The position numbers were made by a program, and so were the translations under genes. DNA of 62,042 nt, taken from Enhydrobacter aerosaccus. Lineage in GTDB: Bacteria; Pseudomonadota; Alphaproteobacteria; Reyranellales; Reyranellaceae. Below the pieces are notes generated by a model. The model was given only the letters and a program-made list of their open reading frames with translations. It ran no database searches and was not told the DNA's origin. The stretch covers positions 1 through 62,042 of the forward strand of contig CAIWTJ010000215.1 in assembly GCA_903915535.1 (NCBI GenBank), in the 5' to 3' direction. Shown piece after piece: positions 15,021 through 44,409 of the stretch. Each line of letters opens with the position of its first letter. The stretch's first letter is position 1.

Positions 15021-15037
15021 CGACATTCTCCCTGTGG

Positions 15038-15148
15038 CCCATCCTTCGAGACGCGGCCCTTCGGGCCGCTCCTCAGGATGAGGTTGTGCGGCTGGCTCAA
15101 AGATAACCTCACCCTGAGGAGGCGCGTAGCGCCGTCTCGAAGGGTGGG
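15038..15148. repeat. Palindromic repeat between hyuA and hyuB
   Basis: Two arms (15038-15084 and about 15105-15148) are inverted copies of one another over about 44 bases, beginning CCCATCCTTCGAGACG and ending CTCAGGATGAGGTT on the left. Each arm carries its own small hairpin (GCGGCCC-TT-GGGCCGC left, GGCGC-GTA-GCGCC right). This build is like the dispersed extragenic palindromes of alphaproteobacteria. In the hyuAB transcript it would form a large stem-loop. Confidence 0.8.
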
Positions 15149-15161
15149 CAACAGACGCGCC

Positions 15162-33302: not shown

Positions 33303-33411
33303 CCGTCATCCCGACCGGAGCCGAGCAAAGCGAGGCGTAGCGGAGGGATCTCTCTTGTGATCGCAAGAAGAGAGGCCCTTCGGCTCCGCTGCGCTTCGCT
33401 CAGGGTGACGG
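33303..33411. repeat. Palindromic repeat, relative of the GIY-YIG element ends
   Basis: The left arm begins CCGTCATCCCGA and runs to GGAGGGATCTCTCTT; the right arm is its imperfect inverted copy, ending CAGGGTGACGG at 33411. Outer and inner ends match the terminal repeats at 43.0-43.4 kb (CGTCATCCCGAGCGGAGC and GAGGGA), but no gene lies inside. It fills the gap between the binding protein and the first permease of the operon. Confidence 0.8.
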
Positions 33412-40067: not shown

Positions 40068-42988
40068 GCGATCTCGAACAGACTCTGCGCCGCACGATCA
40101 AGGGTGATGTGCTCTTCGACCGCGCCTCGCGCGGCCGCTATTCGACCGATGCCTCGATCTATCAGATCGAACCGGTCGGCATCGTGATCCCGCGCGACGA
40201 GGGCGATCTGGCGCTGGCGCTCGACGTGGCGCGCGACGCCAAGGCCGCGATCCTGCCGCGCGGCGCCGGCACATCGCAGTGTGGCCAGACGGTAGGCAAG
40301 GCGCTGGTCATCGATTTCTCGCGCTACATGCGGGAGATCGTGGGCTTCGACAAGGATCGCGCCGAGGTCACCGTGCAGCCGGGCGTCGTGCTCGATCAGC
40401 TCAACGCCTGGCTGAAGCCGCACGGCCTCTGGTATCCCGTCGACGTCTCGACCTCGGCGCAATGCACCCTGGGCGGCATGGCGGGCAACAATTCCTGCGG
40501 CAGCCGGTCGATCCGCTACGGCAACATGGTGCACAACGTGGCGGCCATCGATGCCATCCTGGCCGACGGCACGCGCGCGCGCTTCGATTCCCGGCGCCCC
40601 GAGGACATGCAGCCCGCCGTGCGCGCCATCGCGGACCGGGTGGCGGCGCTCGCCGTGGCCGAGCAGGACGAGATCGTGCGCATGTACCCCAAGGTGCTGC
40701 GGCGCGTGGGCGGCTACAACCTCGATATCTTTTTCCCGCAGTCGGAACGGCCGTACACGACCGACAATTCGGTGAACCTGGCGCACCTGCTGGTCGGCAG
40801 CGAAGGAACGCTCGCGGTTACCGAGCGCATGACGCTCAAGCTCTCGCGCCTGCCCAAGCACAAGACCCTGGGCGTCGTGAACTTCAACTCGTTCTACAAG
40901 GCGATGGAGTCTGCGCAGCACATCGTGAAGCTGAAGCCCACGGCCGTGGAGCTGGTCGACCGCACCATGATCGAGCTGGCGCGCGCCAATCCCGCGTTTC
41001 GGCCGGTGATCGAGCGGGCGCTGATCGGTAAGCCCGAGGCGATCCTGCTGGTCGAGTTCGCGGGCGAGGAGCGCGAGGCGCAGGTCCAGGACCTCAAGCG
41101 GCTCGTCGAGCTGATGGCCGATCTCGGCCTGCCGGGCAGTGTCGTGGAAATGCCGGAGCCCGGCCCGCAGGCCGCGCTCTGGGAAGTCCGCAAGGCCGGG
41201 CTCAACATCATGATGTCGATGAAGGGCGACGGGAAGCCCGTCTCGTTCATCGAGGATTGCGCCGTGCCGCTCGAGCATCTGGCCGATTACACGCAGCGAC
41301 TGACCGACGTCTTTACCAAGCATGGCACGAAGGGCACCTGGTACGCCCACGCCTCTGTCGGCACGCTGCATGTGCGGCCGATCCTCGACATGCGCCGGGA
41401 GGGCGCTACCAAGATGCGTGCGATCGCCGAGGAGGCGTCGGCGCTGGTGCGCGAATACAAGGGCGCCTACTCGGGGGAGCACGGCGACGGCCTGGTGCGC
41501 TCGGAGTGGGTGGGCTGGCAGTTCGGTCCGCGCATCACCAAGGCGTTCGAGACGATCAAGGACCTGTTCGATCCCACCGGCAGGCTCAATCCGGGCAAGA
41601 TCGTGCGGCCGACCAGGATGGACGACCGTTCGCTGTTCCGCTTCTCGCCGGAGTACAGGAATCCCGAGCACAAGCCCGCGCTCGATTGGTCGGCGTGGGA
41701 CGTGCAGAACGATCCGCTCACCGAGGAATTGACCGAGCCCGGCACCGGCGGCGACGCGACCGGCGGCTTCGCGAAGGCCGTCGAGATGTGCAACAACAAC
41801 GGCCATTGCCGGAAGTTCGATGCCGGGACGATGTGCCCCAGCTTCCGCGTGACGCGCGACGAAGTGCATCTGACACGCGGCCGCGCCAATACGCTCCGGC
41901 TGGCGCTCTCGGGCCAGCTTGGATCGCAGGGGCTGCTGTCGGAAGCGGTCGCCGAGGCGATGGATCTCTGCGTCTCGTGCAAGGGCTGCAAGCGCGACTG
42001 CCCGACCGGCGTCGACATGGCGCGCATGAAGATCGAGGTGAAGTCGGCAAGGCGCATGTCGAAGGGCCTGTCGCTGCGCGACAAGCTGATCGGCAACCTG
42101 CCGGAGATGGCGCCCTGGGCCCGCCGCGTGCCGTGGCTGTTTAATCTCGCGAGCTTCGTCCAGCCGCTGCTGGGCTTCGCCAAGGAGCGCTCGCTGCCCA
42201 GGTGGCGCGGCGATACGTTCCTGGCCACGACCGAAGTCGATGACGTCGATGCGACGGTCGTGATCTTCGCCGACACCTTCTCGAACAATTTCGAGCCCGA
42301 GATCCTGCATGCCGCGCGGCGGGTGCTGGTGGCGGCTGGACACAGGGTCGCCGTCGCCTGGCCTGCGCTGGGCTCGCGCGCGCTCTGTTGTGGCCGCACG
42401 TACCTGGCAACCGGACAGGTCGGCAAGGCCACGGAAGAGGCCGAGCGTGTGCTCGAGGCACTGGCGCCGTTCGTCGAGCGCGGCGTGCCGGTAATCGGGC
42501 TGGAGCCTTCATGCCTTTTCACGCTGCGCGATGAATTCCTCGCCCTGGGATTGGGCGAGGCGGCGCGCAAGACGGCGGACAATGCCTTCCTGTTCGAGGA
42601 GTTTCTGGTGCGGGAAAAGAAGGCGGGGCGGCTCACGCTCGACCTCAAGCCGCTGCCCCAGAAGTCCGCGCTGCTCCACGGTCATTGCCACCAGAAGGCG
42701 TTCGGCGCGATGAGCGCGGTGCAGGAGGCGCTGGCTCTCGTGCCCGATCTCGCCGTCAGCGCCATCGAGTCGAGCTGCTGCGGCATGGCGGGCAGCTTCG
42801 GCTACGAAGCCGAGCATTATAGGACATCGATCGCCATGGCCGAACTCTCGCTGCTGCCGGCCGTGCGCAAGGCCGACGAGGCGGCGCTGGTCGTCGCCGA
42901 CGGCACCTCCTGCCGCCACCAGATCGCCGACGGCGCCGATCGTCAGGCGCTGCATGTGGCGCAGGTTCTTGATCGGGCACTCGCATAG
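40064..42988 (+). CDS. FAD- and Fe-S-containing dehydrogenase (GlcD/GlcF-like fusion, D-lactate dehydrogenase type)
   Basis: A 974-residue two-part enzyme starting GTG (VSDLEQTLRR). The N-terminal part is a VAO-type FAD domain (PRGAGTSQCGQTVGKALVIDFSR at about 65-87, GMAGNNSCGSRSIRYG at about 140-155, GSEGTLAV), ending with the catalytic-type region GEHGDGL. The C-terminal part has two Fe-S motifs, CNNNGHCRKFDAGTMCPSF and CVSCKGCKRDCP, then two CCG-like domains (ALCCGRTY, SCCGMAG). Such proteins oxidise D-lactate, glycolate or D-2-hydroxyglutarate, feeding electrons to the respiratory chain. Coupled to the upstream GntR gene. Confidence 0.92.
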   Translation: MSDLEQTLRRTIKGDVLFDRASRGRYSTDASIYQIEPVGIVIPRDEGDLALALDVARDAKAAILPRGAGTSQCGQTVGKALVIDFSRYMREIVGFDKDRAEVTVQPGVVLDQLNAWLKPHGLWYPVDVSTSAQCTLGGMAGNNSCGSRSIRYGNMVHNVAAIDAILADGTRARFDSRRPEDMQPAVRAIADRVAALAVAEQDEIVRMYPKVLRRVGGYNLDIFFPQSERPYTTDNSVNLAHLLVGSEGTLAVTERMTLKLSRLPKHKTLGVVNFNSFYKAMESAQHIVKLKPTAVELVDRTMIELARANPAFRPVIERALIGKPEAILLVEFAGEEREAQVQDLKRLVELMADLGLPGSVVEMPEPGPQAALWEVRKAGLNIMMSMKGDGKPVSFIEDCAVPLEHLADYTQRLTDVFTKHGTKGTWYAHASVGTLHVRPILDMRREGATKMRAIAEEASALVREYKGAYSGEHGDGLVRSEWVGWQFGPRITKAFETIKDLFDPTGRLNPGKIVRPTRMDDRSLFRFSPEYRNPEHKPALDWSAWDVQNDPLTEELTEPGTGGDATGGFAKAVEMCNNNGHCRKFDAGTMCPSFRVTRDEVHLTRGRANTLRLALSGQLGSQGLLSEAVAEAMDLCVSCKGCKRDCPTGVDMARMKIEVKSARRMSKGLSLRDKLIGNLPEMAPWARRVPWLFNLASFVQPLLGFAKERSLPRWRGDTFLATTEVDDVDATVVIFADTFSNNFEPEILHAARRVLVAAGHRVAVAWPALGSRALCCGRTYLATGQVGKATEEAERVLEALAPFVERGVPVIGLEPSCLFTLRDEFLALGLGEAARKTADNAFLFEEFLVREKKAGRLTLDLKPLPQKSALLHGHCHQKAFGAMSAVQEALALVPDLAVSAIESSCCGMAGSFGYEAEHYRTSIAMAELSLLPAVRKADEAALVVADGTSCRHQIADGADRQALHVAQVLDRALA

Positions 42989-43034
42989 GTAGTAGATCCG
43001 ACAACAAATAGCCAAAATTATCCTATACGACTCT

Positions 43035-43080
43035 CCCGTCATCCCGAGCGGAGCGAAGCGCAGCCGAGGGACCTATTTTT
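43035..43080 (+). repeat. Left terminal inverted repeat of the GIY-YIG element
   Basis: Starts CCCGTCATCCCGAGCGGAGC and ends CCGAGGGACCTATTTTT. Compared with the reverse complement of the right arm it differs by an A/C and a C/A exchange inside GCGAAGCGCAGCC and by one additional A in the final T run. Confidence 0.85.
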
Positions 43081-43091
43081 GGAAGAGCGTA

Positions 43092-43379
43092 GTGAGACAG
43101 CCTGTCGTTTACATGATGGCTAGTGCCACGGGTCGAGCGCTCTACATCGGCGTCACGACTGACATGGCTCGCCGATTGGCGGAACACCGAGCGGGGCAAG
43201 TCGCGCATACCGCTAAGTACAGGATCAACCGTCTTATCTTCGTCGAGCACTTCGAAACGGCGCCCGAGGCCATCGCTCGCGAGAAGCAGCTGAAGGGTTG
43301 GCGGCGGAGCAAGAAGATCTTCCTAATCAATCAGGCCAATCCTGACTGGCGAGATTTGTCCGGCGAGATCGGAAGCTGA
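43092..43379 (+). CDS. Single-domain GIY-YIG nuclease
   Basis: A 95-residue protein, nearly all of it the GIY-YIG fold. The first strand reads VVYMMAS (the GIY position), followed by ALYIGVT (YIG), the catalytic-type Arg in MARRLAEHR, His in the same helix, Tyr in KYRINRLIF and Glu in AREKQLKGW. GTG at 43092 is preceded by GGAAGAG; ATG at 43113 would cut into the first strand. It is related to YhbQ/UvrC-N-like nucleases of unknown role. It stands alone, enclosed by inverted repeats that begin about 12 bases before the start and directly after the stop. Confidence 0.92.
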   Translation: MRQPVVYMMASATGRALYIGVTTDMARRLAEHRAGQVAHTAKYRINRLIFVEHFETAPEAIAREKQLKGWRRSKKIFLINQANPDWRDLSGEIGS

Positions 43380-43423
43380 AAAAAGGTCCCTCGGCTTCGC
43401 TGCGCTCCGCTCGGGATGACGGG
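43380..43423 (-). repeat. Right terminal inverted repeat of the GIY-YIG element
   Basis: Begins with an A run and GGTCCCTCGGC immediately after the nuclease stop and ends CTCGGGATGACGGG. It is the inverted partner of 43035-43080. On the transcript it could also act as a terminator arm for the nuclease gene. Confidence 0.85.
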
Positions 43424-43476
43424 CATTTTCATTGATTTAATTGCAGCAGGACCCTCCCTGTGGCACCGTCGCGCGC

Positions 43477-44409
43477 ATGCAGCAACGATCCAGAAACCCC
43501 TATTCCAGCGCTGAAATCGACCGGTCGAGCCTCGAGCGCGACAATGAAGAGCGGATGATCGAACTGGCCTCGTCCGGCGAGGCGCGATTTGTCCCGATCG
43601 ATTCCGAAAAGAACCTCGTAAAGTCGGGCGGGATGCCCGAGGCGGTGTTCCTGCAGGGCATGATGGGCCGTGCCGTCGCGGGCGCCGCCGACCACCATAT
43701 CTTCCTGGGGTACGTCGATGGCGCGCCGTACTTCGCCGTCGATGTGACCGGCAAAGACACGCCGGTGTCGACCCTGGGCGACTTCGTCGACCTGCGCCAG
43801 GTGGGGGCGCTGCTGTTCGCCAAGGAAGGGTCGATCCTGGCCTATGCGCGCGGCATGACCTACTGGCATCGCCGCCACAAGTTCTGCGGCGTCTGCGGGT
43901 CGATCACCACGGTGGCCAAGGGCGGACACGTCCGCCGTTGCACCAACGAGAGCTGCAAGACCGAGCATTTCCCGCGCACCGATCCCGCGGTGATCATGCT
44001 CGTCCATCACGGCGACAAGTGCCTGCTGGGACGCGGCAAGCAGTTTCCACGCGGCATGCATTCCACGCTCGCGGGTTTCGTCGAGCCGGGCGAGAGCTTC
44101 GAGGATGCGGTCGCGCGCGAGGTCTACGAGGAAGTGAAGGTGAGGGTGAAGAACGTCACCTATCGCTCGTCGCAGCCGTGGCCGTTCCCGGCGTCGGTGA
44201 TGATCGGCTTCCATGCCGAAGCGGAGTCGCTCGACTACGAGGTCAATCTCGACGAGCTGGCCGAGGCACGCTGGATGAGCCGCGACGACCTCAAGCCGGA
44301 GAACATGCCCAAGGACGGTTCGTTCTTCATGCCGCGGCGCGATTCCATCGCCCGCCGCCTGATCGAGGAATGGCTCGGCCACGAGGCGGGCCCATCCATC
44401 AGCGGCTAG
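43477..44409 (+). CDS. nudC: NAD(H) pyrophosphatase NudC
   Basis: A 310-residue protein from ATG 43477 (TTG 43441 is possible). It has a C4 zinc ribbon (CGVCG and CTNESC, about residues 138-162), the Nudix box GFVEPGE...REVYEE, and the NudC-specific SQPWPFPASVM after it. NudC splits NADH and removes NAD caps from RNA. An oddity is the Nudix box glycine after REVYEE, which is Lys here (EEVKV instead of EExGU). The gene is followed by an old yellow enzyme 23 bases on. Confidence 0.93.
   Translation: MQQRSRNPYSSAEIDRSSLERDNEERMIELASSGEARFVPIDSEKNLVKSGGMPEAVFLQGMMGRAVAGAADHHIFLGYVDGAPYFAVDVTGKDTPVSTLGDFVDLRQVGALLFAKEGSILAYARGMTYWHRRHKFCGVCGSITTVAKGGHVRRCTNESCKTEHFPRTDPAVIMLVHHGDKCLLGRGKQFPRGMHSTLAGFVEPGESFEDAVAREVYEEVKVRVKNVTYRSSQPWPFPASVMIGFHAEAESLDYEVNLDELAEARWMSRDDLKPENMPKDGSFFMPRRDSIARRLIEEWLGHEAGPSISG

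Follow-up and report, generated by a model that had tools for sequence, protein, structure and literature searches.

GIY-YIG nuclease genes lie between inverted CGTC-tagged REP palindromes in probable Reyranella genomes, with arm type tracking nuclease clade

A gene for a small GIY-YIG nuclease lies between two inverted REP palindromes in the window, by which we mean the whole stretch of 62,042 nucleotides that was analysed. The arrangement recurs in the genus, very likely Reyranella, and in other taxa, and the type of the arms tracks the clade of the nuclease. The unit is probably a minimal composite element, in which the nuclease is the partner of CGTC-tagged REPs and its gene fills the spacer of a head-to-head REP dimer. 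The window holds the following features:

43035..43079, + strand: left arm, a CGTC-tagged REP (type A) with outward head (repeat search; type-A tail pattern match at 43062)
43092..43379, + strand: GIY-YIG nuclease gene (Slx1/UPF0213-like), 95 aa, GTG start (ORF list, Pfam, fold)
43379..43423, - strand: right arm, the inverted REP (type A) with outward head (repeat search; type-A tail pattern match at 43384)
33304..33409, no strand given: type-A-like REP head-to-head dimer without a gene, a candidate non-autonomous form (sequence search)
15037..15149, no strand given: type-C REP pair, tail to tail, about 100 bp apart (type-C pattern search)

The packaging of a GIY-YIG gene between inverted repeats of about 45 bp, as put forward in the original prediction, was confirmed by a repeat search that returned arms of 45 nt each with 93% complementarity and a spacing of 299 nt around the ORF at 43092-43379. 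The arms sit just outside the start and stop codons, as had been described: the start codon lies 12 bases past the end of the left arm and the last base of the stop codon is the first base of the right arm. They differ much as first noted, by two exchanged bases (GAAGC/GCAGC, order swapped) and one base beside a T run. Local alignment of the two flanks scored 37.5, compared to no more than 12.5 in 100 shuffles. The claim that the unit holds nothing but the gene also stands, since the ORF list has no second ORF of at least 60 aa wholly contained in the interior on the + strand. A search of 42900-43600 gave no known RNA family at gathering threshold. No target-site duplication is visible at the window, and flanks adjoining the junctions fail to align between relatives.

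The window protein matched a single Pfam family, GIY-YIG (E 3.7e-16), and left PF01797, the Y1 HUH transposase family, unmatched. Its PDB relatives by sequence are two UPF0213 proteins (1zg2 and 1ywl), both labelled hypothetical. A structure search with the AlphaFold2 model (mean pLDDT 90.3) ranked 1zg2 first (E 2e-4, TM 0.57), followed by At-HIGLE and Slx1 chains (E 0.04-0.17) and then by UvrC domains. Among 165 stop-free relatives Y7 was kept in 161, Y18 in 163, R28 in 164, H32 in 163 and E64 in all 165, and these five we take to be the catalytic residues of the GIY-YIG family. By its fold and the conserved Y, Y, R, H and E the window protein is a member of the Slx1/UPF0213 GIY-YIG family, and structure-specific cleavage is predicted from this likeness. 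Anti-phage defence models matched neither the window protein nor the type-C protein, a phage collection left the window protein unmatched at E 1e-5, and NCBIfam has no model for any of the three nuclease proteins of the own genome.

Two of these three are further homologs, 73% and 42% identical to the window protein. Both likewise lie between inverted arms, one with the general REP type of the window and the other with arms of another type (CCTCATCCTGAGGAG...CTCGAAGGATGGGC). Pattern searches found 40 type-A, 13 type-B1, 50 type-B2 and 68 type-C sites in this genome, to be read against reversed patterns that gave 10 sites for A and none for B1, B2 and C. When the neighbours of these sites were analysed (A 40/40, B1 13/13, B2 50/50, C 65/68), 41 pairs no more than 3 kb apart were head to head, as opposed to 10 tail to tail; the dimers are thus mostly head to head, as in CGTC REPs. 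The spacing was 15-71 bp in 38 of the 41 pairs, and the remaining three, at 319, 322 and 358 bp, contain precisely the three nuclease genes of the genome. Since the only head-to-head pairs spaced by more than 71 bp contain nuclease genes, the unit is best described as a REP dimer with the gene as its spacer. Multiple copies had been expected from the window, and arms and gene are both present several times. The REPs do occur genome-wide, the situation in which a lack of enrichment at GIY-YIG genes was held to count against the prediction, but the gene-length head-to-head brackets in this genome enclose nuclease genes only. Type B accounts for 63 sites here, yet zero B nucleases were detected.

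In the genus, nuclease homologs occur in 54 of 61 genomes, with up to 11 matches per genome, some of which are stop-containing or shortened. We examined 92 loci among the matches listed, own genome included and most of the weakest or fragmentary ones left out, and the flanks were long enough in 90. Bracketing was defined as an IR score of at least 16, a score which counts any inverted repeat whatever its sequence. It was reached by 81 of the 90 loci, as compared to 0/168 same-geometry control windows elsewhere in the loci (control maximum 15.5); nine loci scored below it. The tags observed on the arms are CGTC, TGTC or CCTC. A GTC pattern, which is blind to the CCTC tag of type C, pointed outward in the left arm of 54 of the 81 bracketed loci, was inward only in one and absent from 26. 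The arms of types B1 and B2 are one compensated base pair apart in the REP stem (C-G to T-A). At the B1 loci the nuclease reading frame terminates within the right REP arm, so that the C-terminal residues (..PSLRSG in L094 and L101-L104) are encoded by the REP itself.

The co-occurrence of GIY-YIG clade and arm that had been foreseen was borne out on the protein tree, where the arm labels A, B1, B2 and C require 7 changes, with 4 the least possible and a mean of 41.6 after shuffling; the tree comprises 77 stop-free proteins, four of its rows are unlabelled, and its columns are few, the last B1 columns being possibly REP-encoded. In a Mantel-type test, protein and arm were correlated within the genus (r 0.635, 64 loci), and the correlation outside the genus was weak (r 0.275, Spearman 0.064, 46 loci). 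Cognate REP number was also higher in genomes with the nuclease. With four arm copies discounted and phylogeny ignored, the comparison across 61 genomes gave 30 type-A REPs where the A nuclease was present vs 8 where it was absent (p 0.0022), 40 vs 13 for B1 (p 9e-5), 47 vs 18 for B2 (p 9e-4) and 32 vs 11 for C (p 0.0065). Clades were assigned by protein in these tests, A and C from the homolog match table (some C matches unfetched) and B1 and B2 from fetched loci, with fragments counted as present. Non-cognate combinations gave p of at least 0.07 in 11 of 12 cases, the exception being the C nuclease with B1 REPs (p 0.009). Independent pairs drawn on a tree of 30 genomes tend in the expected direction (A 1.9:0, B1 4.7:2.5, B2 3.7:0.4, C 3.2:0.1), none of them significantly. 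One fragment, in genome G011, combines a B1-like protein with B2 arms.

Hairpin structure differs between the types. Arms of type C and of the named taxa fold far better than shuffled sequences (z -3.2 to -4.7), whereas those of types B and A, including the arms of the window, fold no better (z -0.8 to 1.2). In centroid folds the tag is unpaired in arms of type B, type C, Azospirillum, Neisseria, Sinorhizobium and one sphingomonad. Covariation supports the stems of types B and C, in counts that include sites from related loci: the outer pairs of type C are Watson-Crick in 60/60 sites (41 T-A and 19 C-G), as are 142 of 144 stem sites of type B, and the central type-C stems, with 25 different sequences, form at least 4 bp in 50 of 60. 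A GNA triloop closes 40 of these 50 stems. Such a loop is a preference of DNA, not of RNA, and single-stranded DNA is therefore the probable substrate. Types B and C and the named arms are small palindromes with an unpaired CGTC, TGTC or CCTC end tag, the anatomy of the CGTC REP superfamily. A stem of 8-9 bp with a loop of 4-5 nt is present in the Azospirillum, Neisseria and Sinorhizobium arms, and type A of the window is a longer, weaker and imperfect palindrome.

A wider sample combined named genomes (best 80 of 568) with a class-wide draw (289 genomes, 132 of them matching, best loci only). Inverted arms with an IR score of at least 16 were present at 54 of 91 of these loci vs 1/492 control windows, and 37 loci fell below that score. 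The bracketed loci belong to Alphaproteobacteria and to MAGs or isolates titled Acidobacteria, Gemmatimonadetes, Chloroflexi, Clostridiales, Bifidobacterium, Treponema and others; among the Bacteroidota none of six loci reached the score. The GTC tag of the left arm was outward in 42 of the 54, inward only in eight and missing from four. Among 33 records from a plasmid collection, ten loci were examined, of which seven were strongly bracketed, one (Planktothrix) weakly and two not at all; the loci of R. tumorigenes and Sinorhizobium K101 had no arms. Four of the seven, namely a chromosome-sized Neisseria gonorrhoeae record, N. aromaticivorans, S. meliloti and A. lipoferum, belong to taxa that PMC3733652 lists, by species or genus, as CGTC carriers; it equates the REP kind of the N. 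gonorrhoeae record with dRS3. Among the matches listed, the A. lipoferum arm is found at no fewer than 47 places, spread over five of its replicons. On the Planktothrix agardhii plasmid the GIY-YIG gene is flanked by a type IIL MmeI-like gene and DISARM drmA.

The distribution of the units suggests mobility. The 92 genus loci fall into 53 flank clusters, 32 of them singletons, a number which is approximate because two clusters contain loci from more than one clade. Empty sites in relatives had been anticipated, and corresponding sites without the unit do occur in close relatives. At nudC, the site of the window unit, a unit is present in 8 of 30 examined loci; genome G036, 94% identical over nudC, is without it, but most of the intergenic region is gone as well, and what is seen there is an absence rather than a precise junction. 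At htrA a unit is present in G000 and G001 and missing from G036, with no CGTC REP by eye. The unit shared by G022 and G037 has an entire REP dimer on either side and is absent from G010, again with no CGTC REP by eye; the same site is occupied in G035 by a type-C dimer, in G023 by a type-C pair and in G038 by a fused type-C-like palindrome. In G044 it carries a pair of the RAYT-type repeat (L330, about 1950-2030), and REPs of different systems thus occur at one and the same intergenic site.

Comparable absences are evident in other genera. A. lipoferum 4B has a dimer-gene-dimer arrangement between sufB and sufC, and it is the only one of 12 Azospirillum records to span the whole stretch from sufB through the unit to sufC. 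A. ramasamyi (96% DNA identity), A. oryzae (95%) and A. sp. B510 (95%) have the site without unit and without CGTC REP by eye, B510 holding another palindrome. Sphingobium TomMM7A has a unit at a site where TomTYG72 shows no CGTC REP by eye and another palindrome, and Sphingobium TomTYG74 and Sinorhizobium K101 each have one fused palindrome, of cognate type, at the vacant site. This fused palindrome may be a scar of excision by the nuclease, but deletion between short direct repeats within palindromic arms would give the same product. On pSymB of S. meliloti Ak57 an internally deleted copy, REP to REP and without most of its gene, adjoins a full unit (L366, about 1150-1330), and deletion of the gene between two REPs is thus a possible route to gene-less dimers; the fused palindrome of Sinorhizobium K101 lies at the corresponding site.

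These sites also bear on the question of whether the gene invaded pre-existing REPs. A free-standing gene of the homing-endonuclease type could have used the arms as homology, with the REPs moved by other means, and its position between the two REPs of a head-to-head dimer would suit such an origin, as would the REP-like DNA at five vacant sites (other REP types in G035, G023 and G038, a fused cognate palindrome in TomTYG74 and K101). GIY-YIG enzymes are known as homing endonucleases (PMC1564403). We nevertheless regard homing as unlikely. None of the vacant sites examined holds an intact cognate dimer, no CGTC REP was seen by eye at the A. ramasamyi, A. oryzae, B510, TomTYG72, G036 htrA and G010 sites, and homing leaves unexplained that genome-wide REP number follows the cognate clade.

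The nuclease could instead process or maintain REPs, trimming or resolving their hairpins or regulating itself through them, while another, perhaps lost, enzyme spread them. Its nearest folds, UPF0213 and Slx1-type structure-specific nucleases, are compatible with such a role, and several species keep some of the sites. Furthermore, seven of the 61 genomes have REPs and no detected nuclease (for example G049 with 161 type-A, G052 with 103 type-B2 and G015 with 84 type-C sites), from which it follows that REPs outlive the nuclease or move otherwise. We find processing doubtful, however, since the many flank clusters, the decayed copies and the site-specific absence from close relatives look mobile, and since the nuclease is accompanied by more cognate REPs, not fewer.

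The original prediction likened the unit to the REP/RAYT pairing with a nuclease of a different fold, and the parallel is apt. RAYTs themselves are present in the genus, PF01797 giving 53 matches in 31 of 61 genomes, and it could be argued that these HUH transposases move the REPs in trans while the nuclease genes hitchhike. This is very improbable: the other 30 genomes have no PF01797 match, yet type-B2 REPs occur in 61/61, and none of 30 examined RAYT loci (of the 53) has A, B or C REPs within about 600 bp, while 24 have inverted repeats of other sequence with an IR score of at least 16. These other repeats at the genus RAYT loci (L334-L363) are of at least two kinds (GGACCGC... and GGAGCGCGCCACTCC...). 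Two REP systems therefore coexist in the genus, and the part of PMC3733652 available to us records no RAYT flanked by CGTC repeats. Chance or an annotation artefact, for which one may note that REPs are common enough to bracket some gene, has a negligible probability given the two sets of control windows and the restriction of gene-length brackets to nuclease homologs in the own genome.

A partnership between nuclease and REP is thus the preferred reading, in which each nuclease clade would be paired with one REP type. The nuclease would most likely recognise its own REP by hairpin and tag in single-stranded or extruded DNA, and binding would be followed by nicking or cutting of the cognate hairpin. 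Mobilisation may then result from host replication and repair, which would place copies of the REP dimer, alone or together with the gene, at new intergenic sites; gene-less dimers would represent the non-autonomous form, as REPINs do for RAYTs. Cutting and copying of the cognate hairpin is favoured because the fold, the hairpin covariation, the match between clade and REP type, and the gene-less dimers all agree with it.

If this reading is correct, it offers a role for genes annotated merely as 'GIY-YIG nuclease family protein' or 'excinuclease ABC subunit C'. On this view the nuclease would be the partner so far missing for one of two large bacterial REP palindrome families. In a broader form, towards which we lean only slightly, mobilising the CGTC REP superfamily would be the dedicated task of GIY-YIG nucleases in many bacterial phyla. 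They would then form a second class of REP system, independent of RAYTs, whose enzyme is a simple hydrolytic hairpin nuclease that has no transposase chemistry and relies on host repair to spread its own hairpin dimers. No report of a link between REPs and GIY-YIG proteins was recognised among the matches listed in open-licence PubMed Central, a scope that excludes bioRxiv and most subscription journals.

Among known systems, the UPF0213 or prokaryotic Slx1-like proteins (1zg2, 1ywl) are alike in sequence, fold, size and conserved residues, and the available text of PMC1564403 mentions no repeat association for them. GIY-YIG homing endonucleases share the nuclease fold and a selfish-looking distribution, but the present unit has its own terminal REPs and its protein is without an extra DNA-binding domain. 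The CGTC-tagged REPs described by Di Nocera in 2013 (PMC3733652) include Neisseria dRS3 and occur in five phyla and every alphaproteobacterial order; they share the tag, the mostly head-to-head dimers and the taxa with the REPs described here. Their loops are of 4-5 nt, whereas those of Reyranella types B and C are often three-base GNA. That survey, as far as available, reports no associated transposase and leaves the mode of spread open (PMC3733652), and here a nuclease gene is found between such REPs in Azospirillum lipoferum, Sinorhizobium meliloti, Novosphingobium aromaticivorans and Neisseria. With a matching nuclease between CGTC REPs in the same taxa, their spread is open to direct test using a protein of 95 residues and a 30-45 nt hairpin.

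The REPtron or REPIN-RAYT system, in which TnpA_REP, a Y1 HUH transposase, acts with GTAG-tagged REPs, shares with the nuclease unit a single nuclease gene between inverted REPs, genome-wide cognate REP dimers and the anatomy of tag plus hairpin. It differs in having an HUH nuclease and a GTAG tag in place of GIY-YIG and CGTC, TGTC or CCTC, and the unit described here is often present in several copies per genome. GIY-YIG enzymes cleave by hydrolysis, and no covalent enzyme-DNA step is expected, unlike in the REPtron. The nuclease itself can therefore not rejoin strands as HUH enzymes do, and this would be the main mechanistic difference between the two systems.
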